Shown here piece after piece: positions 27,779 through 41,493 of a DNA stretch of 64,000 nucleotides. A model generated the notes under the pieces. The model saw only the letters and a program-made list of their open reading frames with translations. It was not told where the DNA came from and made no database searches. The DNA comes from Demequina sp. NBRC 110053. GTDB taxonomy: Bacteria > Actinomycetota > Actinomycetes > Actinomycetales > Demequinaceae. Position 1 is the first letter of the stretch; the number at the start of each line of letters is the position of its first letter. A program made the position numbers and the translations under genes. The stretch is taken from positions 671,265-735,264 of the forward strand of contig NZ_BBRJ01000002.1 of assembly GCF_002090095.1 (NCBI RefSeq), in the 5' to 3' direction.

Positions 27779-29386
27779 TCAGAGAAGCGTGAAGTGGCCG
27801 TCGGGTGGCGGCTGGTCGAGCCATGCGGGGGTTGCGGCGGGCTGAGGGCGCTTGCGACGTCGAGGCGACTGCTTGCGCTGTGACCGGTGCTCGGGTCGTG
27901 GCACGGCATTCGCAAGGGGCGCGTTGCGGTGCCCGGCCTCGCCGGGCGGTCTGGCTGCGAGTTCGAGCTCTCGTTGTTCTCGTGCGGTGATGCCGAACTT
28001 CGCTGTGCCGCCCAGTTGCCACGGCCGTTTCGGGTCCACCGACCCTGGCGGTCGGAAGTACACGTCGGTGGCGGTGGCGTCGATGTCCCAGCCGCCGGCA
28101 TGAACCGTGTGGTGGCAGGCGACGCACAGCAGGACACCGTTGTCGAGATCGGTGCGGCCGCCATGGGACCACCAGTCGATGTGGTGGGCTTCGCAGTGGC
28201 TCACGGGTGCGCCGCACATCGCGCAGCCCCCATCACGGTGCACGAGGGCGGCCCGCTGAGCCGGGGTGAACAGCCGCTGCTCACGTCCGACGTCCAGCGG
28301 CTGAGAGTCGCCGCCGAGGACGACGGGCAGGAAGCCGGCGTCAACGGCAAGGCGTCGCAGCTGCGAGATCGGCATGGCGGCACCGTCGATGTCGGCCACG
28401 CCCGCGCCGGCACGCAAAGCGTCCAGGTCGATGCGGATCTCCACTCGGGTGGTGGCATGCGCGAGGGGTGCCTGGTCGCAGCCGAGCATGTGGGTCGCGA
28501 ACGACGCCAGCGCGTCGGCGCGGATCTGGCCGGTGGTGCGCTTGTCCTCAGCGAGCGCATCACCGTCGCGGCGCCGGCGCAGCGCATCCTTGACCGCACC
28601 TTCCAATGCGGCACGGATGGGCGCGGCCGACACGGGATCGAGCACGCCCTTGACCTCGATGGCGCCGTCCTTGCGGTCGGACAGGATCAGATACCGGCTG
28701 TCATGCAGGTGTTCCTGGCGCCGCTCAGCGGCAGCGGCTTGGAGCTGATGCTGGAAGCGCCGCACGATCGGCGCAAGCTGCTCGAGGGACAGTCCCGGGG
28801 TCTTGGCGACGATGCGCTCCTCAGCAATGCGAACCTGTTCGGGCGAGGCATCATCACCCACCGCGTCGAGCATCGTCGTGATCATCGACGCCGCCGCGGC
28901 CGACAGGTCGCCCGCGCTGACCGCGCCAGCCACCACCGGATACACGGGTGTGTCTGGCTCCGGCACCGGCAGCCCCGCCTGCTCAGCCTCCGCAGCCCGG
29001 CGTTCATGCTCGGCGGCCTCACCCAGCGTCGCACCGGTGCGGATGAGATCGTGCGCCTCGCGGCGCGACCCGCCCGTGATCCCTGCCAGGAACCGCTCGG
29101 GGGTGGTGTGCCCGTTCTTGCGCGCCAGCCCCTTGGCGCCGAACTCTGGCGCGGAACGCCGGCCGATCTCCGCGGCAGCGGTGGCGACCATCAGGTCCCA
29201 CTCCTTGCGTGCAGCGGCGGTCGCGTGCTGGACTTCGAGCAGCGCCCCCTCGGACAGGTCCCGGACCGTGGCCGCACAGATCAACTCCTTGGCCTTCGCG
29301 CGCGCCACCCGGTCAGCCTCAAGCGCTTGCGCAAGCTCGGCGGGGACCTCCGTGAAGGAGGACTCAGCAGGGGCCGTGGACGTCAT
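27779..29386 (-). CDS. DUF222 (13E12 family) HNH endonuclease-like protein
   Basis: A 535-residue protein. The DUF222 domain fills roughly residues 30-380, mainly helical with ARKEWDLMVATAAAEIGRRS. The C-terminal zinc HNH domain reads CAMCGAPVSHCEAHHIDWWS (within about 415-435) followed by DLDNGVLLCVACHHTVH. All HNH His/Asn and CxxC residues are present, so it could be an active nuclease. The tail is basic and proline-rich. The family was named for the mycobacterial REP13E12 repeats and occurs in many copies in actinobacterial genomes. Its role is unsettled. The ATG at 29386 has no clear Shine-Dalgarno sequence. Base use looks slightly less GC-rich than neighbours. Confidence 0.85.
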   Translation of the reverse strand: MTSTAPAESSFTEVPAELAQALEADRVARAKAKELICAATVRDLSEGALLEVQHATAAARKEWDLMVATAAAEIGRRSAPEFGAKGLARKNGHTTPERFLAGITGGSRREAHDLIRTGATLGEAAEHERRAAEAEQAGLPVPEPDTPVYPVVAGAVSAGDLSAAAASMITTMLDAVGDDASPEQVRIAEERIVAKTPGLSLEQLAPIVRRFQHQLQAAAAERRQEHLHDSRYLILSDRKDGAIEVKGVLDPVSAAPIRAALEGAVKDALRRRRDGDALAEDKRTTGQIRADALASFATHMLGCDQAPLAHATTRVEIRIDLDALRAGAGVADIDGAAMPISQLRRLAVDAGFLPVVLGGDSQPLDVGREQRLFTPAQRAALVHRDGGCAMCGAPVSHCEAHHIDWWSHGGRTDLDNGVLLCVACHHTVHAGGWDIDATATDVYFRPPGSVDPKRPWQLGGTAKFGITAREQRELELAARPPGEAGHRNAPLANAVPRPEHRSQRKQSPRRRKRPQPAATPAWLDQPPPDGHFTLL

Positions 29387-29502
29387 GAACCCAGTCAAAC
29401 ACCACCCCCTGACACGACAAACAAGCCAGGTACCAGGCTGGGGAGAACACCAACCCGACACGACCCTGGGGATGCCAGCACGCGCATCGGCGCACGGCAC
29501 GA

Positions 29503-29521
29503 GCGATGCCCTTTGCATCGC
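29503..29521 (-). terminator. Possible terminator after the SpoIID-SLH gene
   Basis: GCGATGC (29503-29509) pairs with GCATCGC (29515-29521) around a five-base loop, about 45 bases beyond the SpoIID-SLH stop. No U-run is seen. The rest of 29387-29567 shows nothing else I can assign. Confidence 0.35.
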
Positions 29522-29567: not shown

Positions 29568-31481
29568 TCAGTAGTTGGGCCTGAATGACCACAGCCACGG
29601 CGACTTGCCGTGCGCCAGGGCGCTCCTGATCCGCTCGGCGCCCGTGATTGAGGCGGTCGCGCCTGCCGACGACGTGGCCGTCACCTTGGTCGCGGCCGCA
29701 TCGGAGCCTCCGGCGGTGCGCGCCGTCACCGTGATCGATACCACGTCAGGCAGCCCGAACGCGGAAGCCGCCTCCGCCTGGGTGAGGGTCATGGTCCAGG
29801 ACCGGTTCGGGTTGATCGAAGACTCGGACCACGGGTCGTCCACCGACCTCAGGTACGGGAGTGCTGAGCTCCAGATGTCCTCGCTGTTCTCCGTCTGGCC
29901 GCCGGAGGAGGAGAAGTAGTACGTGGCGGCGATCGAGCTGCCGTGCTTGAGCACCTTGCCGTCCGCGCCGCCGGACGAGTTGGTCGCGTCCACGGCGGCC
30001 ACCCAGCGCTTGCCGTAGTAGGCGTCGGTGCCCTCGTTCTCCTTGGTCCACCCGGTGAAGTTCTGGTCTCGGGTGTCGTCGTAGACATGGCAGGTGCAGT
30101 TCGCGCTGTAGTTGCCCATCTGCCGGAGAGCGTAGCCACGCGCGACGATGCTCTGCGCTTGGAGCGCGTCGTGGTCCCACGACGACGGCATCTCCGCGAT
30201 GCCGTACAGGTACTCCGTGTTGAGCGCCAGCTCATTGGCGATGATGATCCGGCTCTGCGGGACCGAGATCAGCAGCCTGCCGTGGCGGTACGTGCCGTGA
30301 GTGGCACGCCTCTCGGAGGCGCCATCGCCCTGGTAGATGTCCACGTAGGCGTCTTCGTTCGACCCAGGCTGGTAGTAGCTCGTCGCCTCCCACTGCAGCG
30401 ATATGTCCTTGGTCGCGGTCGCATTCGTGCCGCCGTCGCGCTCGACGGTCACGGAGGTGCCGGAGCGCGTGACGTGGAGCTTCTCGTTGTTCGTGCCGGT
30501 CCAGGTGGTGTGCGGCGAGGTCGTGCCCTTGTCGAAGAACCGCATGACCCACCGGCCGTCGTCCGTGCTGTCCGGCCCGAGCGATCGCACCACCACGGTG
30601 ACGGAGTCCTTCCCGTCGCTCCCGGAGCCGAACACCTCGACCTTGATGTCGCGCTGAGCGCTGACGGTGCTGACGGAGGTGCCGGCGTAGTACGTCTGCA
30701 GGATCGCGCCGGCGCCATGGCCGTCGAGCGCCATGGCCTGGGCTCCGTACTGCGACATGCCCACGCCGTGTCCATAACCGGCGCCGGAGATCGTGAACGA
30801 CGTCGGTACGCCCACACCTGGCACGTCGGGACGTCCGGCCATCCGGTGGAGGAATGCCGCCGTGGCTTCGCGCGTGACGTCGGATGCGGGACGGAAGGTG
30901 CCGTCGGGCCAGCCCGTCGAGATCCCCGACCCGCTGAGCCACGTCACCTCCCGGTAGAAGGGGGAGGTCGGGGTCACGTCCGTGAACGGCGACGTCGACG
31001 GCGGCGTGAATGACGGGCTGTCGTGGAACCGGTAGAGGAAGGCCGCCATGGCGTCGCGGTCGATGGCCTCCCCTGGGCGGAACGTTCCGTCCGCCCACCC
31101 CGTCGCGATGTCCTGCTGCTCGAGCCAGACGATCGGCTTGTAGAACTGAGCGCTCGTGGGGAGGTCCGTGAACGGCGACGTCGTTGGCGAGGACACGGTC
31201 GGCGACCCGGCGTACCGGTACAGGAACGCCGCGAAGGCCCCCCGTGTCACGGCCGACGTTGGCCGGAACGTCCCATCGGGATACCCGGAGGCGATGCCCA
31301 TGTTCGCGGCCCAGGTGATCTCCTTGACGAACGGATGCGACGCGGGGACGTCGGAGAAGTGGGTGGCGGCCGATGCGGTCGCGGCGAACAGTGGCATCGC
31401 GACAGCGGTCGCTGCCAGGGCGCTGATGGCTCGGCGGAGCACGGAGCTGAGGGTGACGTGCACGGGGAGCCTGCCTTGCAT
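29568..31481 (-). CDS. Secreted SpoIID/LytB-domain protein with three S-layer-homology repeats
   Basis: A 637-residue exported protein. A signal peptide (hydrophobic core AISALAATAVAMPLFAATAS, cleavage after ASA at about 38) is followed by three SLH repeats, each ending in the motif xxDGTFRP: GYPDGTFRP, GWADGTFRP and GWPDGTFRP. They cover about residues 40-220. A SpoIID/LytB domain occupies the rest, with GAGYGHGVGMSQYGAQAMA, VPQSRIIIANELALNTEYLYGIAEMP-like strands and AQSIVARGYALRQ. SpoIID enzymes are lytic transglycosylases in sporulating Firmicutes; here the domain probably remodels peptidoglycan at the surface. The start at 31481 gives a normal signal peptide. Confidence 0.88.
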   Translation of the reverse strand: MQGRLPVHVTLSSVLRRAISALAATAVAMPLFAATASAATHFSDVPASHPFVKEITWAANMGIASGYPDGTFRPTSAVTRGAFAAFLYRYAGSPTVSSPTTSPFTDLPTSAQFYKPIVWLEQQDIATGWADGTFRPGEAIDRDAMAAFLYRFHDSPSFTPPSTSPFTDVTPTSPFYREVTWLSGSGISTGWPDGTFRPASDVTREATAAFLHRMAGRPDVPGVGVPTSFTISGAGYGHGVGMSQYGAQAMALDGHGAGAILQTYYAGTSVSTVSAQRDIKVEVFGSGSDGKDSVTVVVRSLGPDSTDDGRWVMRFFDKGTTSPHTTWTGTNNEKLHVTRSGTSVTVERDGGTNATATKDISLQWEATSYYQPGSNEDAYVDIYQGDGASERRATHGTYRHGRLLISVPQSRIIIANELALNTEYLYGIAEMPSSWDHDALQAQSIVARGYALRQMGNYSANCTCHVYDDTRDQNFTGWTKENEGTDAYYGKRWVAAVDATNSSGGADGKVLKHGSSIAATYYFSSSGGQTENSEDIWSSALPYLRSVDDPWSESSINPNRSWTMTLTQAEAASAFGLPDVVSITVTARTAGGSDAAATKVTATSSAGATASITGAERIRSALAHGKSPWLWSFRPNY

Positions 31482-31760
31482 CGAGCGAGCGCCACGCGCG
31501 GCGGCCGTGGCAGCGCGTGACAGATGTGGCCAGTGTGACACATGGGGAGGACGGCGCAACCCCGGCATGTGCGTCGACACGCGCATGCAGACGCGCGCCC
31601 TCGGGCCCCGCCACGGATCGTCAGGACGCGCGCCCGGCTGAGGCGTTTGTCACATTTCGTTGATTCGGGGCATCGCGATTTCCCAGACTCCCTTGCGTAC
31701 GGCAAGCGTGCACGCTCGCGTGCGCGTCGAAGGACCTGACGTGGAGAGGTGGCGATCACG
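31482..31760. promoter_or_regulatory. Divergent promoter region of the two SLH genes
   Basis: About 280 bp between two divergent secreted-protein genes, with locally lower GC near 31641-31700. TGTCACA occurs at 31649-31655. The related GTGTGACACA lies at about 31535-31544 with TGACAGATGTGG nearby. These look like half-sites of a shared regulator, but I could not define a full operator or confident -10/-35 pairs. Confidence 0.35.
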
Positions 31761-32795
31761 GTGGCACACATGGGTGGCATGAGGATGGCTCGTCGCGCCA
31801 TCGCGGCGATGGCGCTGGGCGCCCTCGCCGCCGTCGCGATCGCGCCTGCTGGCGGCGCCGGCGCCAGCGCCACCCAGACGGGCGCCGCAGTGATCCTCGC
31901 GAAGACCAACGCCTACCGCGACGGCGCGGGTGCATCGGACCTCATGCGAGCGGGACTGATCGACGATGTCGCCCAGGCGTGGGCACAGCGTCTGCTCTCG
32001 ACCAGGACCCTCGCGCACAACCCTCGCTACAGTTCGCAGATGCCGAGCACCGGGCTGTCGGCAGCCGCCGAGAACGTGGCCTTCGCCTGCGGCTACGGCG
32101 GCGCCAAGGCCAACGCCGAGCGCATCATGGGCAACTGGTACAAGTCCGATGGCCACCGCAGGAACATGCTGAACAAGAGCTACACCCACATCGGCATCGG
32201 CTACGCATACGACTCCACGTCGGATTGCGCGTACGCGGTGCAGAACTTCGGCGCCTACGCGCAGGAGTTCTTCGATGTCCCCCGTCGCCATCAGTTCTAC
32301 GACGAGATCGACTGGCTGTCGGGCGAGGGCATCACCACCGGGTACGCGGACGGCACCTTCCGACCCCGGGAGGACGTGAGCCGCGGCGCCTTCGCCGCCT
32401 TCCTGTACCGCCTCGCCGGCACGCCGCGGGTCTCGCTGCCGGCGAGATCGCCATTCACGGACGTGCCCACGAGTGCGCAGTTCTACAAGCCGATCGTGTG
32501 GCTGTCCCAGGAGGAGCTCTCCACCGGCTGGTCGGACGGCACCTTCAGGCCCCAGGACGAGATCTCGCGCGAGGCGATGGCGGCGATGCTCTACCGCTAC
32601 TACGACGAGCCGCCGGCGTCGCACACCTCCGCGACCGCGTTCGACGACATCTCGCGTGAGTCGCCGTTCCTGCGGGAGATCAGCTGGCTCGCCTCCTCGG
32701 GCATCACCACCGGCTATGCGGACGGCACCTTCCGGCCGAGAGCACCGGTCACTCGCGACGCCACGGCGGCCTTCCTGGAGCGCGCCGAGAGCTGA
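31761..32795 (+). CDS. Secreted CAP-domain protein with three S-layer-homology repeats
   Basis: A protein of about 344 residues. A signal peptide (RRAIAAMALGALAAVAIAPA) precedes a CAP/SCP domain (about 45-165) with ILAKTNAYRDGAG, TRTLAHNPRYSSQMP, AAENVAFACGYGG and NWYKSDGHRRNMLNKSYTHI. Both family His residues are kept. Three C-terminal SLH repeats (GYADGTFRP, GWSDGTFRP, GYADGTFRP) should bind a cell-wall polymer. SLH order is inverted relative to the divergent SpoIID protein, where they are N-terminal. GTG at 31761 has GAGAGG eleven bases upstream. ATGs at 31770 and 31779 are alternatives, so the first few residues are uncertain. Confidence 0.87.
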   Translation: MAHMGGMRMARRAIAAMALGALAAVAIAPAGGAGASATQTGAAVILAKTNAYRDGAGASDLMRAGLIDDVAQAWAQRLLSTRTLAHNPRYSSQMPSTGLSAAAENVAFACGYGGAKANAERIMGNWYKSDGHRRNMLNKSYTHIGIGYAYDSTSDCAYAVQNFGAYAQEFFDVPRRHQFYDEIDWLSGEGITTGYADGTFRPREDVSRGAFAAFLYRLAGTPRVSLPARSPFTDVPTSAQFYKPIVWLSQEELSTGWSDGTFRPQDEISREAMAAMLYRYYDEPPASHTSATAFDDISRESPFLREISWLASSGITTGYADGTFRPRAPVTRDATAAFLERAES

Positions 32796-32838: not shown

Positions 32839-33714
32839 TCACTCCAGGCCCAGCGCGCGGCGAGGCGCCGTGGTGGCGGCCGCCAGCGCCGCATCGCGGC
32901 TCACGCCCGCTTCCACGCATACCTCGATCGCGCGCTGCAGGGTCAGCGTCGAGCCTGCGAGCGTGTCCGTTCCCGCGATGAGCGCGCGACCGCCCCTGAC
33001 CTCGACGTCCAGCGACCCCAGCCGGTAGTCGCCATCGTGCGCCGCCGCGGCTGCCATCGCATCGGTGACCAGCACCACGCGCCCGTGGGCCGCGCGAAAG
33101 ATGGTGGCGATCAGCTGAGGATCCACATGGATGCCGTCGGCGATCACCTCGATGAACACGCGTTCGTCGGCGAGCGCGGCGCCCGCCGGACCGATCTCGC
33201 GGGCGGTCACGCCCCGCATCGCGTTGAACGCGTGCGTCACGAGGGTCGCGCCGCGGTCGAAGGCCTCGCGTGCGAGCGCCGCGTCGGCCTCAGTGTGGCC
33301 CACCGCCACGGCGACGCCCGCACCCACGAACCGCTCGATCGCCTCGAGGGCGCCCGGGAGCTCGGGCGCGATGGTCACCTGCCGGATGATCCCGTCGCCC
33401 GCGGCCACGAGCTCGTCGACCACTGCCGCCCCGGGAGCGATCAGCGCGGCCGGGTCGTGCGCGCCCTTGCGCGCGGGCGCGAGGAACGGCCCCTCGAGGT
33501 GCGCGCCCAGCAGCGCGGGCTGCTCGGCCATCGCCTCGCGCACCACGGCGAGCTGCTCCCGCAGGACCGGCAGGGGCAGCGCCACGAGCGACGCGACCAT
33601 GGCGTGGGTGCCCGCGCGCCGGTGGGCGTCGATCGCCCCGAGCGTGGCCTCGACCGTCGACCCGAAGGCGTGCCCGCCGCCGCCGTGGCAGTGGATGTCC
33701 GTCAGCCCCCGCAT
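32839..33714 (-). CDS. nagA: Barrel-only N-acetylglucosamine-6-phosphate deacetylase
   Basis: A 291-residue amidohydrolase that should remove acetate from GlcNAc-6-P to give GlcN-6-P for NagB. Catalytic features are present: GAHLEGPFLAPARKGAH (metal Glu), AVGHTEAD and THAFNAMRGVTAREIG (His ligands), DGIHVDPQL, and VTDAMAAAA (catalytic Asp). Usual NagA proteins are about 380 residues. This one begins directly at the barrel (GLTDIHCHGGGG) and ends at ATTAPRRALGLE, so it lacks both the N- and C-terminal strands of the beta-sandwich. The start is certain: AGGAGG sits four bases before the ATG and the nagB stop is eight bases away. Confidence 0.85.
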   Translation of the reverse strand: MRGLTDIHCHGGGGHAFGSTVEATLGAIDAHRRAGTHAMVASLVALPLPVLREQLAVVREAMAEQPALLGAHLEGPFLAPARKGAHDPAALIAPGAAVVDELVAAGDGIIRQVTIAPELPGALEAIERFVGAGVAVAVGHTEADAALAREAFDRGATLVTHAFNAMRGVTAREIGPAGAALADERVFIEVIADGIHVDPQLIATIFRAAHGRVVLVTDAMAAAAAHDGDYRLGSLDVEVRGGRALIAGTDTLAGSTLTLQRAIEVCVEAGVSRDAALAAATTAPRRALGLE

Positions 33715-33722
33715 CGGTCCTC

Positions 33723-34505
33723 CTAGATGCCCTGCCAGTCAGGCTTGTTGTCCTGCGCCCAACGGTAGTAGTCACCGTGCTGGAGCGCCGACGCCGCGGC
33801 CGGGTCGAGCACGACCGTCACGTGTGGATGGAGCTGGATGGCGGAGCCCGGCATCGACGACGACACGGGACCCTCGACGGCTGCCGCGACCGCGTCGGCC
33901 TTGCCCTCGCCGAACGCGAGCAGCACCAGGTGCCGCGCGCGCAGGATCGTGCCGAGCCCTTGCGTCACACAATGCATGGGCACCTCGTCGAGCGAGGAGA
34001 AGAACCGGGCGTTGTCGCGGCGCGTCTGCTCGGTGAGCGTCTTGACGCGCGTGAGCGACGCGAAGCTCGAACCGGGCTCGTTGAAGCCCAGGTGGCCCGT
34101 CGAGCCGATGCCGAGCAGCTGCACGTCGACGCCACCGTGCGCGATGAGCGCCCGCTCGTAGCGGTCCCCCGCGGTCTCGATGCCGATGGCGGAGCCGTCC
34201 GGGACGTGCACGTGCTCGGGGTCCATCCCGAGCCGCTGCGTGACCTCACGATCGATCACCGCGCGGTACGACTCGGGATGCCCGTCCGGCAGGCCCACGT
34301 ACTCGTCGAGCGCGAAGGCCGATGCGCGTGAGAAGTCCAGGCCGCCGCTCGCGTGCTCGCCCAAGGCGGAGTAGACCGGCAAGGGCGTCGATCCGGTCGC
34401 GACGCCGAGCGTGGTCGACGGATGCTCGCGCACCAGCGCGGCGATGTGCCCGGCGACGAGCGCGGCGCCGTCCTCCTTGCTGTCGAGGACCAGGACCTCA
34501 GGCAT
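33723..34505 (-). CDS. nagB: Glucosamine-6-phosphate deaminase
   Basis: A 260-residue NagB enzyme that converts GlcN-6-P to fructose-6-P and ammonia. Motifs are intact: LGVATGSTPLPVYSALGEH, AFALDEYVGLPDGHPESYR (catalytic Asp) and LLGIGSTGHLGFNEPGSSF (active-site His and Glu), followed by TEQTRRDNARFF, VTQGLGTILRARH and AVEGPVSSSMPGSAIQLH. The allosteric variant cannot be judged. It overlaps the ROK kinase gene by eight bases and precedes nagA by eight bases, so translation is coupled along the operon. Confidence 0.95.
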   Translation of the reverse strand: MPEVLVLDSKEDGAALVAGHIAALVREHPSTTLGVATGSTPLPVYSALGEHASGGLDFSRASAFALDEYVGLPDGHPESYRAVIDREVTQRLGMDPEHVHVPDGSAIGIETAGDRYERALIAHGGVDVQLLGIGSTGHLGFNEPGSSFASLTRVKTLTEQTRRDNARFFSSLDEVPMHCVTQGLGTILRARHLVLLAFGEGKADAVAAAVEGPVSSSMPGSAIQLHPHVTVVLDPAAASALQHGDYYRWAQDNKPDWQGI

Positions 34506-35403
34506 CGCTCACCTCCAGCATCGCGGCGCCGATGGCCGCCACGGGCTCGTCCGCCGGGGCGATGCTCATGCGCTCGCCCATGCGCAGCGACGCGAGGAAC
34601 GGAGACGAAGCCTCCCAGTCCTCGATGACGGCACGCGCGCCGTCGGTGAGCTCGGGGCCGAGACCCGTCAGCCCGCCGCCCACGATCACGTGATCGAGGT
34701 CGAGCGTCAGCACCAGCACGCGCACGGCGCTCGCCAGACCGAACATCAGCCGATCGCGGATGGCGACGGCCTCGGCGTCGCCGGTGCGCGCATGCGTCAG
34801 GACGTCCTCGCTGGTCTGGCCGTCGCGCCCCCATTGGAGCGCGATCCCCGAACCGGACGCGTAGGTCTCGATGCCGCCGCGCAGCCCGTCAGCCCCCACG
34901 GGGCCCGCGGGGTCGACGGAGATGTGGCCGATCTCGCCCGCAGCGCCGTGCGCGCCCCGCCACAGGCGTCCATCGAGGATGATGCCCGCGGCGAGTCCCG
35001 TGCCGAGGTTGAGATAGGCGACCGACTTCCTGCCGTCACCGAGCAGGTGCCAGGCGCCCACCGCCGCCGCGTTGACGTCGTTCTCGACGAGGACGGCCCT
35101 GCCCCAGTGCGCCTCGAGCGCGCGACCGAGATCGAGCTCGGTGACCCCCAGGTTGAGGGCATGGCGCACCACCCCGCCGCTGATCGCGCCAGGGATGCCG
35201 ACGCCCACGCTCGCGGCCTGAGCGACCGAGATCCCGGCGATGTCGCACGCCGCCCCCACGGCCTCCACGGCCGTGGCGATCACGCCGTCATCGCCCCTGC
35301 GCACGGGCACCCGGTGCCGGGCAGCGACAGCTCCGTCCGCGGCGAGGACCACCGCGTCCACCTTGGTCCCGCCGATGTCGACGCCGATGCGCTGGCCGGT
35401 CAC
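34498..35403 (-). CDS. ROK-family sugar kinase (probable GlcNAc kinase) without the zinc-finger cysteines
   Basis: A 301-residue ROK protein with no DNA-binding domain, hence a kinase. The phosphate loop GVDIGGTKVDAVVLA is at about 6-20, GVGIPGAISGG at about 75, and the catalytic Asp is in VENDVNAAAVGA. LNLGTGLAAGIILDG and HGAAGEIGHISVDP (His-containing motif) are present. After this His, ROK proteins normally carry CxCGxxGC binding zinc. Here it reads AGPVGADGLRGGIETYASG with no cysteine. In operon context the substrate is most likely GlcNAc or MurNAc-derived sugar. The GTG start overlaps the GH3 stop (GTGA), and its end overlaps nagB. Confidence 0.85.
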   Translation of the reverse strand: MTGQRIGVDIGGTKVDAVVLAADGAVAARHRVPVRRGDDGVIATAVEAVGAACDIAGISVAQAASVGVGIPGAISGGVVRHALNLGVTELDLGRALEAHWGRAVLVENDVNAAAVGAWHLLGDGRKSVAYLNLGTGLAAGIILDGRLWRGAHGAAGEIGHISVDPAGPVGADGLRGGIETYASGSGIALQWGRDGQTSEDVLTHARTGDAEAVAIRDRLMFGLASAVRVLVLTLDLDHVIVGGGLTGLGPELTDGARAVIEDWEASSPFLASLRMGERMSIAPADEPVAAIGAAMLEVSDA

Positions 35404-36830
35404 GAGACCATCTCCAGCAGCGCAGCGCCCGCGAGCCTCGAGGCCCCATACGTCGCGATGTCGGCGTAGGGCGAGGAGGAATCTGGCCACCCCATGTCCA
35501 CCGTGATCACGTCGCGCGCACGCAGCGCATCGATCGCCTCACGGATCCATGGGTGGCGGTGGTTGTCCTTGCCCACGGCGAGGATCAGCGCGTCGCTCGG
35601 CAGGGCCTGGACGTCGAGAGCATCGGACGGACCGACCACCGTGGCCGCCTCGGCGCCCGCAGCGAACGGTCCCCAGGGACTCGCCCCCACCGCCATGTTG
35701 GGGGCGGGCTCGAATCGAAGCCAATGAACAGGGGTGCTCGGCGCGCGAGCATCGAGGGCCGCGCGCGCGGCGTCAGAGACCGAGAACGAGTCGCGCACCG
35801 CGGCGAGGTCGAGCCCCTCGACGACGCCCGGCTCCGCGCCGCCCCACTCGCTCGCGGCGCCCCGCACCCGGGAGGCGAGGGAGCGCACCCGAGCCGCCGC
35901 ATCGGCCACCCGCGATGACTCGAGCGCGGCAGAGGCGACAGCGGCGTCGATGGCGTCGACGATCTGTCCCATCTGCTCGTCGGTGTTGGCCGTGCCGATG
36001 CACAGCAGGTCGCAGCCCGCCGCGAGCGCTCGCGCGGCGGCGGCAGGGATGCCGATCTCGCCGGAGGCGCCCGCCATGTCCAGCGCGTCCGAGACGATGA
36101 GCCCCTTGAACCTCATCTCCTCGCGCAGGAGTCCCGTGAGGATCGCGTGCGAGAACGTGGCCGGATTGTCCGGATCGAGCGCCGGCACCATGATGTGCGA
36201 GCTCATGATGGTGAGCGCGCCTGCGTCGATGACCGCCTGGAACGGCGCGAGCTCGCGGGCGCGGAGCGTGTCGAGGTCGGCGTCGACGACGGGCAGGTCG
36301 TGGTGCGAGTCCTGCGCGGTGTCGCCATGGCCAGGGAAGTGCTTGGCGTTGGCGGCGACGCCCTGCGACTGCACGCCCTGCGTCCAGGCGACCCCATGAC
36401 GGCCCACGAGCGCGGGGTCCGTCCCGAACGAGCGCACGCCGATCACGGGGTTGAGCAGGTTCGAGTTGATGTCGACGTCGGGGGCGAGCGTGAGGTTCAC
36501 GCCCACGGCCGCGAGCTCGCGTCCGACCTGCGCACCCACCTCTCGGGTGAGCGCGAGGTCGTCGAGCCGCCCCAGGATCGCATTGCCGGGGAACGGCGAG
36601 CCGGTGCGCTGGTACAGCCGCGACACATCGCCGCCCTCCTCGTCGATCGACACGATCGCGTGGGGGTTGGCGGCGTGGATCGCATCGGTCAGCGACCTCA
36701 GCTGGGCCGGTGACTCGACGTTGGAGCCGAACAGGCAGACGCCGCCCATCCCCTCGCGCAGGCGCCGCTCGACCCAGGCGGGCAGCTCCGTGCCCTCGAA
36801 GCCCGGCATGAGCGTGGCGAGTGCCGTCAT
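35400..36830 (-). CDS. Glycoside hydrolase family 3, beta-N-acetylhexosaminidase type
   Basis: A 476-residue GH3 enzyme of the NagZ-like group, which releases GlcNAc from chitin or peptidoglycan fragments. IVSIDEEGGDVSRLYQRTG (about 60-78), the loop dyad AKHFPGHGDTAQDSHHDLP (about 160-178) and the nucleophile segment GLIVSDALDMAG (Asp near 240) are all present. No signal peptide is visible, so it acts in the cytoplasm on imported oligosaccharides. The last 150 residues form a second domain with lower conservation. It overlaps both neighbours by four bases (ATGA upstream, GTGA downstream). Some actinobacterial homologues act as phosphorylases, which cannot be excluded. Confidence 0.9.
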   Translation of the reverse strand: MTALATLMPGFEGTELPAWVERRLREGMGGVCLFGSNVESPAQLRSLTDAIHAANPHAIVSIDEEGGDVSRLYQRTGSPFPGNAILGRLDDLALTREVGAQVGRELAAVGVNLTLAPDVDINSNLLNPVIGVRSFGTDPALVGRHGVAWTQGVQSQGVAANAKHFPGHGDTAQDSHHDLPVVDADLDTLRARELAPFQAVIDAGALTIMSSHIMVPALDPDNPATFSHAILTGLLREEMRFKGLIVSDALDMAGASGEIGIPAAAARALAAGCDLLCIGTANTDEQMGQIVDAIDAAVASAALESSRVADAAARVRSLASRVRGAASEWGGAEPGVVEGLDLAAVRDSFSVSDAARAALDARAPSTPVHWLRFEPAPNMAVGASPWGPFAAGAEAATVVGPSDALDVQALPSDALILAVGKDNHRHPWIREAIDALRARDVITVDMGWPDSSSPYADIATYGASRLAGAALLEMVS

Positions 36831-37675
36831 CCCTTCACCGCCCCGCCCACGAGCCCCTGGGTCATGCGGCCCTGGACGAACATGAAGAACACGATGACCG
36901 GCACCGCGACCAGGGTGGAGGCCGCCATGACCTCGCCCCAGTTGGTGGTGTTGACGGCGCTGTCCTGCAGGAAGCCGCGCAGCCACAGGGGCAGCGTGGC
37001 CTTCGAGCCGTCGGGCAGCAGGATCAGCGCGACGGCGAACTCGTTCCACGCCTGCAGGAACGCGTAGACGCCGGAGGCGACCAGGCCGGGAGCGAGCAGC
37101 GGGAACGTGATGCGCATGAAGGCCTGGTTGCGGCTGAGGCCGTCGACCATCGCGGCCTCCTCGAGCTCCGCCGGGATGCCGGCGACGAACCCGCGCAGCA
37201 TCCAGATCGTGAACGGGATGACCGTGGCCGTGTAGATCAGCGAGACGCCCACGACGGTGTTGAGCAGTCCGAACCCGGCGATCATCTTGTACTGGGCGAT
37301 GAACAGCGCCTCTGCCGGGATCATCTGGATCACGAGGACCGCGAGCACGAACTGCTTGCGGCCGCGGAAGCGGAACCGCGAGATGGCCAGCGCCGCGAGG
37401 AACGCGAAGGCGATGCAGACGATCAGCGTCAGGAACGTGATCGCCGCTGACATGCCGAGCGCGCGCAGGAAGGTGCCGTCCGACAGCGCCGCCTCGAAGT
37501 TGGACAGGCTTCCGCCGAAGGGAAGGAAGGTCGGGGTGAGCTGCTCGAGCGTCGAGCCAGGCAGGAACGAGGAGTTGACCATCCAGTAGACCGGGAACGC
37601 CCAGGCGAGGGTCGCGATCACCGCGATGGTCGCCCACCCGGCGCGGGCGGCGGGGCTCTTCTTGGCGAGGTTCAT
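36827..37675 (-). CDS. Sugar ABC transporter permease (MalG type)
   Basis: A 282-residue inner membrane protein with six predicted helices. The EAA loop is ELEEAAMVDGLSRNQAFMRI (about 180-199) with the downstream FPLLAPGLV, which contacts the ATPase. NSSFLPGSTLEQL near the N-terminus is typical of the second permease in carbohydrate uptake (CUT1) systems. Together with the adjacent MalF-type permease and lipoprotein it should import an amino-sugar oligosaccharide. Its start overlaps the upstream permease stop (ATGA) and its stop overlaps the GH3 start. No ATPase gene is in the operon. Confidence 0.93.
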   Translation of the reverse strand: MNLAKKSPAARAGWATIAVIATLAWAFPVYWMVNSSFLPGSTLEQLTPTFLPFGGSLSNFEAALSDGTFLRALGMSAAITFLTLIVCIAFAFLAALAISRFRFRGRKQFVLAVLVIQMIPAEALFIAQYKMIAGFGLLNTVVGVSLIYTATVIPFTIWMLRGFVAGIPAELEEAAMVDGLSRNQAFMRITFPLLAPGLVASGVYAFLQAWNEFAVALILLPDGSKATLPLWLRGFLQDSAVNTTNWGEVMAASTLVAVPVIVFFMFVQGRMTQGLVGGAVKG

Positions 37676-38640
37676 GACTGCTCGTCCTCCTTCATGAGCT
37701 GACGGACGTAGACCCATGACAGGCCCAGCGTGAGCACCATCACGACGATGGACGCGGTGGCGGCGAGCCCGAAGTCCTGCGAGCCGGTGCCGAGCTTGTA
37801 GATGTAGGTGCCCAGCAGGTCGTACTGCGAGCCGAAGGACCCCGCGTCCTGCAGCAGCTGGATCTGAGCGAACACGCGCAGATCCCAGATGAGCTGGAGC
37901 AGGAACACGATCGACAGGACGGGCTTGACGATCGGGAGGATGATGCGGCGAGTCATCTGGAAGCCGGTGGCGCCGTCGAGCTGGGCGGCCTCGACCACCT
38001 CGTCGCTCACCTGCGTGAAGCCCGCGTACGCGGAGAACGCGATGAACGGCACCGAGTACCAGATGATGATGATGGAGGCGACGGCGAAGAAGCTCCACGG
38101 GTTGATGAGCCAGTCGTGGCCGATCATGTCGACGCCTGGGATCAGGCTCAGCAGATAGTTGATGACGCCGTTGCGGTCGTCGAACAGCCATGTCCACACC
38201 GTCATGTACGCGACGATGGGCATCGCCCACGCGAGCAGCATCGCGATCTGCAGCGTGAGCCGGAGGGCCTTGCCCACGTTCTTCATCACGAGGGCGAGCG
38301 CGATGCCGAGCACCATCGACACGCCTGCGGTCACCAGGCAGAACACCACCGACTTGAGGACGATGGCCCAGAAGCCCGTGTCCGTGAGCATCTCGCTGTA
38401 GTTCTGCAGGCCCACGAACGGCGCGGGCTGGCCGAACTGCTGCGCGAGCCCGTACTCGCGGAAGGACGTCACGAACTGCCAGATCAGCGGGTAGCCCGTG
38501 CCGACCACGACGACGACGATCGCGGGGATGATGAGCCAGTACGGAAGCTTGGTCCTCCGGCGGCGGGCGCGTGGCGCGGGAGGGTCCTCCAGCCGCGGGG
38601 GCTGGGCCTGCGCCGGCGGGGCGACGGCTGGTGCGGACAT
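37672..38640 (-). CDS. Sugar ABC transporter permease (MalF type)
   Basis: A 322-residue membrane protein with a proline-rich cytoplasmic N-terminus of about 45 residues and six membrane helices starting at YWLIIPAIVVVVVGTGYPLI. The EAA loop is EVVEAAQLDGATGFQMTRRI with LPIVKPVL. It forms the heterodimeric channel with the MalG-type subunit. The ATG at 38640 follows AAAGG by eight bases; an in-frame ATG at 38676 is less well supported. It lies about 240 bases after the lipoprotein gene, behind a strong hairpin. Confidence 0.92.
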   Translation of the reverse strand: MSAPAVAPPAQAQPPRLEDPPAPRARRRRTKLPYWLIIPAIVVVVVGTGYPLIWQFVTSFREYGLAQQFGQPAPFVGLQNYSEMLTDTGFWAIVLKSVVFCLVTAGVSMVLGIALALVMKNVGKALRLTLQIAMLLAWAMPIVAYMTVWTWLFDDRNGVINYLLSLIPGVDMIGHDWLINPWSFFAVASIIIIWYSVPFIAFSAYAGFTQVSDEVVEAAQLDGATGFQMTRRIILPIVKPVLSIVFLLQLIWDLRVFAQIQLLQDAGSFGSQYDLLGTYIYKLGTGSQDFGLAATASIVVMVLTLGLSWVYVRQLMKEDEQS

Positions 38641-38838
38641 GGCGGAGCCTTTCGAGCAGGGGGGATGTCGCGACACGAGACCTGCGCCTTCAGTGTCGCG
38701 CAGTGCGTGCGGAGGGGGGAGGGCCGATGCGCTGGCGCGTCGGGGCGCGAGACGCGTGGGTCCTCAGGGACGCGTCGGGCGGTTCGGGGTTCCGTGGGGC
38801 CGGGCGACCCCGGCGATGCTCCTGTGGGAGCCGGTGTC

Positions 38839-38878: not shown

Positions 38879-40219
38879 TCAGCCGTTCAGCTGGGGCGTG
38901 ATCTGTGCGTCGTACTCCGCAGCGAGGGCGGCGACGTCACCACCCTCGGCGACCGCCTGGAAGAACTCCTCCAGGAGGCCGGAGCCCTCGACGGCGGCCC
39001 AGCCGGGCGCGGCCGGGGTGAGCTTCGAGACCTGAGCGGTGTCCCAGGCGATCTGGCGGAAGTCGTCGGTCACGAAGGAGTCCTTCGCGTTGACGTTGGC
39101 GGGACCCAGACCGTTCTCGCCCAGCAGCTGCTGGTACTCGTCGGAGAAGATGATCCGCAGCAGGTCCCGCGAACCCTCCTGGTTGGCCGAGGTCGCCGAG
39201 ATGCCGATGTTCGAGCCTCCGGCGAACACGGGGGCCAGGCCACCGTCGACTCCGGGCAGGCCGTAGGCGGTGTTCTTGGCGTCGTCCCACGCGAGGACGG
39301 GGTCGCCCTCCTCGGTGGTCTCGCCGGTGTCGAAGCCGATGCAGCAGGAGGCCCACGACGGAGCCATCGAGGCGGCGGCGGGGATCCCCGACAGCGAGCC
39401 GTCGTTGATGATGAAGTAGTTGTCAGCGTCCGTGTCGTTCGCCGCGGCGACCGACGCCGTCTGGAACATCTCCTGCCACTGCTCGATGCCGGCGACGCTC
39501 TCGGGGCTCGACAGGGTCGAGACCCACTGGTCGCCATCCTTGGCGGCGAGGTCACCGCCGTTGGCGAAGATCCAGGAGATGGCGTTGCGCCAGTCCTGGC
39601 CACCGAGGTAGAGACCGCCGATGCCCTGCTCCTTGAGCGAGGCGTGGACCTCGGTCACCTCGGCGAGCGTGGTGGGCGCCTCGACGCCGCCCTGCTCGTA
39701 GAGGTCGGCGCGCGCCCACATGTTGCGCGAGCCGAAGTAGTACGGGAGCGCGTAGGGCGTGCCGTCGACCGAGCCGACCTCCGTGAACGAGGGCAGCAGG
39801 TCATCCCCGCCGAGCTCCTCGTACACGTCGGAGAGGTCCGAGAAGGCGCCGACCGAGGTGAACGTGGGCGCCCAGGTGTTGCCGATCTCGACCACGTCGG
39901 GCGTGTTCGCGGCGTCCGGGAGCGCCGTCGTGAGGCGCGGCAGCGCGTCGCCCCAGGCGACGGCCTCGACGGTGAGAGTGCCTCCGTTGACCTCCGCGTA
40001 CTGCTCCTCGAGGTAGGTCACCAGCGCCTCGGGAGTGTCAGGCGCGCCCATGAGCCACAGGCTGATGTCCTGCGCGACGGTCTCCTCTGCGGGAGCCTCC
40101 GAACCGTTGCCCTCGGGCTCGGTGGTGGGGTCCTCGTCGGTTCCGGACGACGAGCATCCTGCGAGGACGATGGCGGAGGCGGCCGCGAAGGCCACCGCAC
40201 CGCTGGTCATCTTCTTCAT
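38879..40219 (-). CDS. Sugar ABC transporter substrate-binding lipoprotein
   Basis: A 446-residue extracellular lipoprotein. The signal peptide ends in the lipobox IVLAGCSSSG (Cys about 21), followed by an acidic linker. The mature part is a family 1 solute-binding protein: ISLWLMGAPDTPEAL, VEIGNTWAPTFTSVGAF, PYYFGSRNMWARADLYEQGG, WIFANGGDLAAKDGDQWV and FAGGSNIGISATSANQEGS. It should capture chitin- or peptidoglycan-derived sugars, judging from the operon. SCCIGF holds an adjacent cysteine pair that may form a disulfide. AAGGAAG lies seven bases before the chosen ATG. Confidence 0.93.
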   Translation of the reverse strand: MKKMTSGAVAFAAASAIVLAGCSSSGTDEDPTTEPEGNGSEAPAEETVAQDISLWLMGAPDTPEALVTYLEEQYAEVNGGTLTVEAVAWGDALPRLTTALPDAANTPDVVEIGNTWAPTFTSVGAFSDLSDVYEELGGDDLLPSFTEVGSVDGTPYALPYYFGSRNMWARADLYEQGGVEAPTTLAEVTEVHASLKEQGIGGLYLGGQDWRNAISWIFANGGDLAAKDGDQWVSTLSSPESVAGIEQWQEMFQTASVAAANDTDADNYFIINDGSLSGIPAAASMAPSWASCCIGFDTGETTEEGDPVLAWDDAKNTAYGLPGVDGGLAPVFAGGSNIGISATSANQEGSRDLLRIIFSDEYQQLLGENGLGPANVNAKDSFVTDDFRQIAWDTAQVSKLTPAAPGWAAVEGSGLLEEFFQAVAEGGDVAALAAEYDAQITPQLNG

Positions 40220-40287
40220 TGATCTGCTTCCTTCTGTTGTGTGTGTGCCGTCCGTGACCCGAGGGCCACGTCGTTGTGGTGCGAGAG

Positions 40288-41493
40288 TCAGGAGACCCCC
40301 AGCTGTCCGGTGAGGACCATGACCACGGCGCCGAGCACGACGATGTCGCGCCCGAGCGTGGTCATCCGCAGCGTGAGATCGCCGTGGAGTTCGGCCATCG
40401 TTCGACTGCGGAGCGTCTCGGAGGTTCCCTCGAGGAGGTGACCGCCGAGCACGTTGAGCGGACCGGCGAGGACGACCTCGCCGATGTTGAGCGCGCCCAC
40501 GACGGGGCCGAGCGAGATTCCCAGTCGCTCCCCTGCCTCGCGCAGGATGGCCTCGCGCTCGGGCGCTCCCGGCGCAGCCGCGAGGCGGGCCTCGAGGCGC
40601 GGGGTCGCGAGCCAGGTCTCGAGGCAGCCGCGCTTGCCGCAAGCGCACTCGTCGCCGCCATCCGTGCCCACCACCACGTGCCCGATCTCGCCGGCGGCGA
40701 AGCCGGAGCCATAGACCAGCTGGCCGCCCACCACGATGCCGGAGCCGACGCCTCGGCCCACGCGGATGAGCATCATGTCGGCCCCGGCCCCGCCGAACGA
40801 GCGCTCGCCGACGGCGGCCATGTTCGCGTCGTTCGCCACCTGCACGGGCAGGTCGTAGCGCTCGGCGATGGTGCGCTGCAGCGGCAGGTCGTGCCAGTCG
40901 AGGTTGGGCGCGCTCACCACGGTGCCGTCGAGGTCGACGAGGCCCGGGCTGCCGATGCCGATGCCGATCACGGGAGCCTGCGCGCGGGCGAGCAGGTCGT
41001 CGAGCAGGTCGCACACGGCGTCGAGCGCAGCCTGCCCGGTCACCGCGTGGACGGCCGCCTCCGCACGCTCGAGCACGGAGCCGTCGAGGTTGGTCACCAC
41101 GCCGCGGAACACGGCGTTGTGCGAGAGGTCGAGGCCGATGATCGAGAAGCCGTCACGGTTGATGTCGAGCATCGTCGCTGGCTTGCCGGGGCGCGAGTCG
41201 GGGCGGATCCCAAGCTCGACGACGAGGTGCTCCTCGATGAGATCGGCGACCAGGTCGGAGATGGTGACGCGCGTCAGCCCCACCTCACGGGCGATGTCCG
41301 CGCGGCTCATGCCGCCGCCGCGGTAGAGCGCCTGCAGGACCAGGGCGCGATTGTGACGACGGGCGTGCTCAGGGCGAACCCGAGCGCCAGGGCGGACCGT
41401 GGCAGCGTGCGCCCGCGCCCGGCCCTGCCGGGCCCGATCGGGCTGCTCCGCCCGGTTCGTGGCGGTCGTTCGACGCGCCTCATCAGTCGTCAT
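40288..41493 (-). CDS. ROK-family transcriptional repressor (NagC/XylR type)
   Basis: A 401-residue regulator heading the amino-sugar operon. After a basic N-terminus of about 45 residues comes a MarR-like winged helix (MSRADIAREVGLTRVTISDL, about 61-80). The ROK domain then has IGLDLSHNAVFRGVV, GIGSPGLVDLDG, VANDANMAAVGE, GEIGHVVVG and an intact zinc motif CACGKRGCLE. Such proteins release DNA on binding an amino sugar or its phosphate. A perfect palindrome touches its start codon, so it very probably represses itself and the downstream transport and catabolic genes. The start is at the last ATG before the operator. Confidence 0.92.
   Translation of the reverse strand: MTTDEARRTTATNRAEQPDRARQGRARAHAATVRPGARVRPEHARRHNRALVLQALYRGGGMSRADIAREVGLTRVTISDLVADLIEEHLVVELGIRPDSRPGKPATMLDINRDGFSIIGLDLSHNAVFRGVVTNLDGSVLERAEAAVHAVTGQAALDAVCDLLDDLLARAQAPVIGIGIGSPGLVDLDGTVVSAPNLDWHDLPLQRTIAERYDLPVQVANDANMAAVGERSFGGAGADMMLIRVGRGVGSGIVVGGQLVYGSGFAAGEIGHVVVGTDGGDECACGKRGCLETWLATPRLEARLAAAPGAPEREAILREAGERLGISLGPVVGALNIGEVVLAGPLNVLGGHLLEGTSETLRSRTMAELHGDLTLRMTTLGRDIVVLGAVVMVLTGQLGVS

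Follow-up and report, generated by a model that had tools for sequence, protein, structure and literature searches.

The window analysed here, the whole stretch of 64,000 nucleotides from Demequina sp. NBRC 110053, contains at 32839-33714 a gene whose product resembles GlcNAc-6-P deacetylase (NagA), and which a preliminary description, made from the letters of the sequence, had presented as a NagA reduced to its catalytic barrel. The locus raises the question whether a NagA without its beta-sandwich is a genuine product of evolution and, if it is, whether such a protein can still be a working enzyme.

Gene layout and start site

The open reading frame is on the minus strand (the preliminary description gave no strand), and nagA is the last gene of a same-strand run that encodes a probable ROK-family regulator, an ABC solute-binding protein, two permeases, a GH3 enzyme, a ROK-family kinase, NagB and NagA. 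The features of the run are as follows.

32839..33714, minus strand: barrel-only NagA (putative GlcNAc-6-P deacetylase), 291 aa; open reading frame, TIGR00221 and AlphaFold2 (AF2) model
33719..33724, minus strand: AGGAGG, likely ribosome-binding site, overlapping the nagB stop; sequence
33723..34505, minus strand: nagB, glucosamine-6-phosphate deaminase, 260 aa; NF001684, 372.2 bits (cutoff 326)
34498..35490, minus strand: ROK-family sugar kinase, putative GlcNAc kinase; PF00480, E 1.1e-46
35400..37637, minus strand: open frame whose 3' part is a GH3 glycosidase (residues 295-586), probably NagZ-like; PF00933, E 1.3e-72
36827..38676, minus strand: two ABC permeases (36827-38230 and 37672-38676); PF00528 in both
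38879..41014, minus strand: open frame whose 3' part is an ABC solute-binding protein; PF13416 and PF01547
40288..41493, minus strand: ROK-family protein, probably a transcriptional regulator; PF00480, E 1.2e-41, and weak winged-helix matches

Every NCBIfam match of the kinase at 34498..35490 was under its own cutoff, and the true start of the GH3 gene lies further inside the 35400..37637 frame. The start of nagA had been called certain, and the surrounding sequence bears this out: the ATG is the sole ATG, GTG or TTG after the upstream in-frame stop, AGGAGG is located 4 bases and the nagB stop (33723-33725) 8 bases upstream of it, with the spacing that had been described. Since none of the 8 codons between the in-frame stop and the ATG is a start codon, there is no space there for an N-terminal sandwich half.

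At its other end, the nagA stop is 43 bases from a convergent gene ending at 32795. This gene (31749-32795, plus strand) and the adjacent, divergent 29568-31586 (minus strand) encode proteins with three S-layer homology domains each, one of which also has a SpoIID domain and the other a CAP domain. A DUF222-HNH endonuclease protein is encoded at 27779-29518 (minus strand).

The encoded protein corresponds to the barrel domain

The TIGR00221 profile aligned to the window NagA over positions 57-348 of 380, so that 56 N-terminal and 32 C-terminal positions are absent. The match to the best solved relatives, 6fv3 and 6fv4 of Mycobacterium smegmatis, spans chain residues 67-360 of 401, the tag counted. 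In M. smegmatis NagA, domain I comprises residues 52-344 and domain II residues 1-51 and 344-382 (PMC6016474). The AlphaFold2 model of the window NagA, built on a 79-sequence alignment, had a mean pLDDT of 95.7 and a pTM of 0.93, and its residues 1-291 superimposed on residues 49-345 of 6fv4 with Z 44.9 and an rmsd of 1.4 over 290 residues at 44% identity. Because the model matches residues 49-345, and taking the domain borders from PMC6016474, the window protein is, as modelled, domain I and within a few residues nothing more, that is, a (beta/alpha)8 barrel alone.

As a positive control, the full-length NagA of Ilumatobacter (L068) was modelled by AF2 on 43 sequences. This model showed five strands ahead of the barrel's first one and two more at the C terminus, and aligned to M. 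smegmatis NagA (6fv4) from -2 to 372 with the sandwich present; it also aligned end to end with the solved NagAs of E. coli, V. cholerae, Klebsiella, Pasteurella, B. subtilis, T. maritima, M. smegmatis and human. The profile extent and the AF2 model of the window protein thus agree with the original observation that the chain starts at the first barrel strand and ends after the last helix, both sandwich parts being absent, and the model contains no rearranged sandwich. The two-domain architecture of NagA, with its N- plus C-terminal beta-sandwich, is not found in this protein, which we therefore classify as a barrel-only variant derived from NagA and distinct from the canonical enzyme. Its TIGR00221 score of 221.2 bits is just below the cutoff of 225.65, which counts against the reading as a working NagA; some equally short Demequina copies exceed this cutoff, for example that of G005 with 241 bits.

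Search for hidden or separate sandwich halves

When the DNA flanking the short forms up- and downstream was translated in three frames and compared with profiles of the two sandwich halves, no match was obtained. These profiles had been trained on 51 long loci, and scores on those 51 are circular. For a control outside the training set we used an N-half profile built on a comparable 20-locus alignment: G032, G016 and G012 all matched, and the N half of the full-length NagA of G032 was found with E 7.5e-15. The G012 match fell elsewhere than its barrel match; since G012 was matched only away from the barrel, the N-half profile misses some divergent N halves. A search of the window organism's own genome with the sandwich-half profiles yielded just short pieces, 16-20 residues long, that lie within frames of 455-614 aa; the best N-half piece had E 0.09 (in a frame encoding another amidohydrolase) and the best C-half piece E 0.009. 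TIGR00221 gave a single match in this genome and no second NagA.

The 168 barrels found in the loci (not counting L156, the broken copy of G011) represent 143 distinct ones, of which 50 are without both halves, 82 have both, one is cut by a contig edge and 10 were called N-minus/C-plus. Inspection by eye showed that six of these 10 (L009, L120, L171, L172, L173 and L175) have an N part that the profile had missed and that L077 is cut at a contig edge, whereas L164-L166 have no N half and keep a C tail. The proposal that the two halves were lost together therefore holds for the 50 barrels without both, but not for L164-L166, where the N half is missing and a 34-residue C tail is present. L164, L165 and L166 (family code f13) form one clade of NagA-like proteins with 33-35% identity to the window barrel and the 34-residue C-terminal tail; they start near the barrel, about 11-12 codons past a NagB-like gene (32-35% identity). 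It is possible that they represent a half-sandwich state.

Spread in Demequina and integrity of the gene

The genus sample consisted of 44 Demequina genomes, 41 of which had a NagA match at E <=1e-20; G023 and G036 had no NagA match in this survey. An intact short nagA with nearly identical ends was present in 38 of the 44, in 37 of them as the sole NagA match and in G016 together with an additional full-length NagA. One full-length NagA each was found in G012 and G032. G040, possibly a mixed bin, had three NagA matches, of which two were read as full length and one is truncated at the end of a contig; its L010, filed in Demequina, and L086, from a MAG titled Actinomycetes bacterium, have identical NagA barrels. 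In G011, whose assembly is 50% complete, the short gene is in three pieces. An rpoB tree (quick method) placed the full-length genome G032 deep, at a position left unresolved, and grouped G012, whose sole NagA is full length and distant, with the short-form genomes.

For the 38 distinct Demequina short genes the median dN/dS was 0.28 and the maximum 0.58 (644 of 703 pairs with dS <1.5), and judging by these sequences the short nagA is under purifying selection. Together with the 38 intact genes and the intact catalytic set (see below), this speaks for the view taken originally, namely that a whole domain was removed by evolution and not by a frameshift.

At all 38 distinct Demequina short loci nagB adjoins nagA, and the distance between the nagB stop and the first barrel residue is -7 to +60 bases. 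The order ROK-nagB-nagA was found in 37 of them; the remaining one shows nagB-nagA, with only 1,000 bases upstream. At the full-length loci with the same ROK-nagB-nagA order (L010, L012, L068, L074 and L084) the barrel starts 158-188 bases past the nagB stop.

Rarity of the short form outside the genus

In a survey of the order, 129 of 149 genomes had a match (E <=1e-20), and the open frames indicated a short form in 5 of 118 genomes outside the genus (G173, G134, G160, G108 and G077); here the ends were read for 26 new loci, 18 fetched places and four partial matches, and profile extent alone was used for the remainder. Among the partial matches, both halves were seen by eye in G079, and in G098, G067 and G151 the C half was evident and the N side, which is part of a long frame, was inspected only briefly. 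In a survey of the phylum with 198 genomes, 78 of which matched (E <=1e-30), there was no second short form; apart from the window's own match, profile extent left only the early-ending matches G190, G355 and G377 as candidates, and these had both halves by eye, whereas for the others profile extent was the sole criterion. With the window protein as query, the best 80 of 508 relatives included short forms from Microbacterium (four), Nesterenkonia (two) and one uncultured actinobacterium. Outside Demequina most homologues are thus full length, which disposes of the possibility that all members of the family have the length of the window protein.

Number of origins and direction of the change

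The window protein takes a position among the NagAs in the trees. In the barrel-only tree with 143 rows the short state requires five changes, and in that with 72 rows (13 Demequina short forms, out of 38 distinct ones, plus 47 long forms) four; none of 200 bootstrap trees can be explained by one change, and the starred branches alone force two. The 13 Demequina short forms and the full-length L012, L010, L068 and L074 are on one side of a branch with a support of 99/93 in this unrooted tree, and L084 falls outside this group. In AU tests, for which the groups follow the trait and were chosen after the first tree had been seen, a single clade of all short forms was rejected (p 0.0064), as was a clade of Demequina with L160-L163 (p 0.026); Demequina with Microbacterium/Nesterenkonia (p 0.27) and Microbacterium/Nesterenkonia with L160-L163 (p 0.34) were not rejected. 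With one common origin rejected, at least two losses of the sandwich are likely, and four or five origins are possible. As the trees are unrooted, the direction of the change, taken to be loss, is based on the presence of the sandwich in the solved NagAs (PMC6016474 and the alignments of L068) and, as far as its members were read, in the remainder of the phylum sample.

Active site, lid and dimer interface

By alignment, the metal ligands H8, H10, E74, H140, H161 and D218 of the window NagA correspond to H56, H58, E122, H188, H209 and D267 of M. smegmatis NagA, for which the roles of the residues were taken from PMC6016474. The metal ligands, H196 and the partner-subunit arginine R172 are kept in all 50 distinct short forms and H86 in 49, L126 having Gln; the claim that the catalytic residues are retained is accurate with this one exception. 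The model has three lid strands (E228-232, E235-240 and E243-246).

Demequina has G or A at position 171 (A in the window protein), whereas 77 of 82 long forms have His and M. smegmatis has Arg. The positions aligned to the Glu-230/Arg-251 salt bridge of M. smegmatis are A182 and A203 in the window; Glu is found there in 17 and Arg in 32 of the 82 long forms. These interface differences from M. smegmatis NagA count against the reading as a working enzyme. The changes are shared by full-length sisters, since L012, L068 and L074 carry S or G at 171 and A at both 182 and 203, and we therefore consider these changes lineage traits that are independent of the loss of the sandwich. G, A or S at position 171, beside the phosphate-binding partner arginine, also occurs in L084, L171, L173 and L175. 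The dimer interface and the loops capping the active site had been expected to differ in consequence of the loss, and this expectation was not borne out: in M. smegmatis NagA both are within domain I (PMC6016474), the lid strands and the partner arginine are kept, and the residues that do differ also differ in the full-length sisters.

Convergent surface repair in the short clades was considered and rejected. In three short clades, polar residues replace hydrophobic ones at positions 273, 277 and 15, but 10% of 220 control triples of long clades have as many such columns; when all dropping columns were counted, 5 were seen, and 20% of the 220 control triples gave as many. That no sign of surface adaptation beyond chance was found counts against the explanation proposed below.

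Proposed explanation and its alternatives

Taken together, the window NagA is very probably a working GlcNAc-6-P deacetylase that has lost the whole sandwich in evolution and consists of the catalytic barrel only, the enzymatic activity being suggested by the neighbouring genes and the conserved residues. In this pathway the ROK-family kinase would phosphorylate GlcNAc imported by the putative ABC transporter or released by the putative GH3 enzyme. The short NagA would then take off the acetyl group with the help of two metal ions presumably held by H8, H10, E74, H140, H161 and D218, most likely as a barrel-to-barrel homodimer in which R172 of the partner subunit would bind the phosphate, and NagB would convert GlcN-6-P to fructose-6-P. 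Any stability once given by the sandwich would now come from the barrel itself. A further reading, which we rate as less likely than not, is that several actinobacterial lineages each shed the sandwich on their own because its stabilising role had passed to something else, such as a changed barrel surface, a different oligomer or a complex of NagA with NagB; in NagA, and perhaps also in related amidohydrolases, the sandwich would then be a removable folding aid and not a part of the catalytic machinery.

The residue at position 171, next to the invariant partner-subunit Arg and different from the His of most long forms (see above), could be read as a sign that GlcNAc-6-P is no longer the substrate of the barrel-only protein and that a different N-acetyl amino-sugar phosphate has taken its place. 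We consider such a shift unlikely: the gene is the sole TIGR00221 match in its genome and adjoins nagB and the ROK kinase, the other listed active-site positions are kept, and the change at 171 is also present in the full-length L010, L012, L068 and L074. That the change counts on an unrooted tree are blind to gain versus loss would allow the barrel-only form to be ancestral and the full-length NagAs to have gained the sandwich. This is very improbable in view of the end-to-end alignment of L068, sandwich included, with solved NagAs from E. coli to human, of the statement in PMC6016474 that all NagA structures known at the time were two-domain, of the phylum sample without a second short form and of the nesting of short clades among long ones.

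The constant proximity of nagB to the short gene in Demequina would fit the idea that a separate gene, or another protein such as NagB, provides in trans either the sandwich or the stability that it gives. We consider this very improbable, because the sandwich matches in the own genome are short fragments in much longer frames and, for 10 of the 50 distinct short forms, the retrieved locus contains no nagB. The gene in three pieces in the half-complete assembly of G011 is what a pseudogene, a frameshift or an assembly error would look like; we give almost no credence to these for the window gene, given the 38 genomes with intact copies and near-equal ends, the low dN/dS and the complete barrel modelled with high confidence. 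Loss of the sandwich from an enzyme that still works is therefore the reading that we retain.

Comparison with known systems

M. smegmatis NagA (6fv3/6fv4) shares the barrel, the metal ligands, the partner-subunit Arg and the lid strands with the window NagA, and differs from it in having domain II and an Arg at the position of 171. The role of this domain II was called unclear, and an engineered truncation of it gave no soluble protein (both according to PMC6016474); the latter observation counts against the explanation preferred here. Closer relatives of full length, L068 of Ilumatobacter nonamiensis and L012 of G032, share the ROK-nagB-nagA order, the supported clade and a non-His residue at 171. 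In contrast to the window locus, they have 161 and 188 nt, respectively, between the nagB stop and the barrel, which leaves space for the N-terminal sandwich half, and C-terminal parts of 28 and 35 aa.

TATDN3 (2y1h) has an amidohydrolase-like barrel and, with 262 aa, a similar length, but its Z score is just 16.3 at 14% identity, as compared to 38.5-44.9 for NagAs. TatD-type enzymes are not known to carry a sandwich. Human AMDHD2 (7nuu) has the same deacetylase barrel (Z 39.5) and, unlike the window NagA, a sandwich, in which the mutation I38T reduced expression yield and solubility (PMC8970586). The natural barrel-only NagAs agree with a role of the sandwich in stability over catalysis.

The barrel-only NagA is a known enzyme with a new domain architecture. 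No mention of a sandwich-less NagA was found in searches of open-licence PMC papers, which does not mean that there is none. In most of the sampled Demequina, nature seems to have made the deletion that yielded no soluble protein when it was engineered in a related enzyme. As barrel-only NagAs and full-length relatives share a gene order and can both be found within one genus, the role of the sandwich can be tested by comparison and by domain grafting, and the barrel-only NagAs offer ready-made test proteins for sandwich function.
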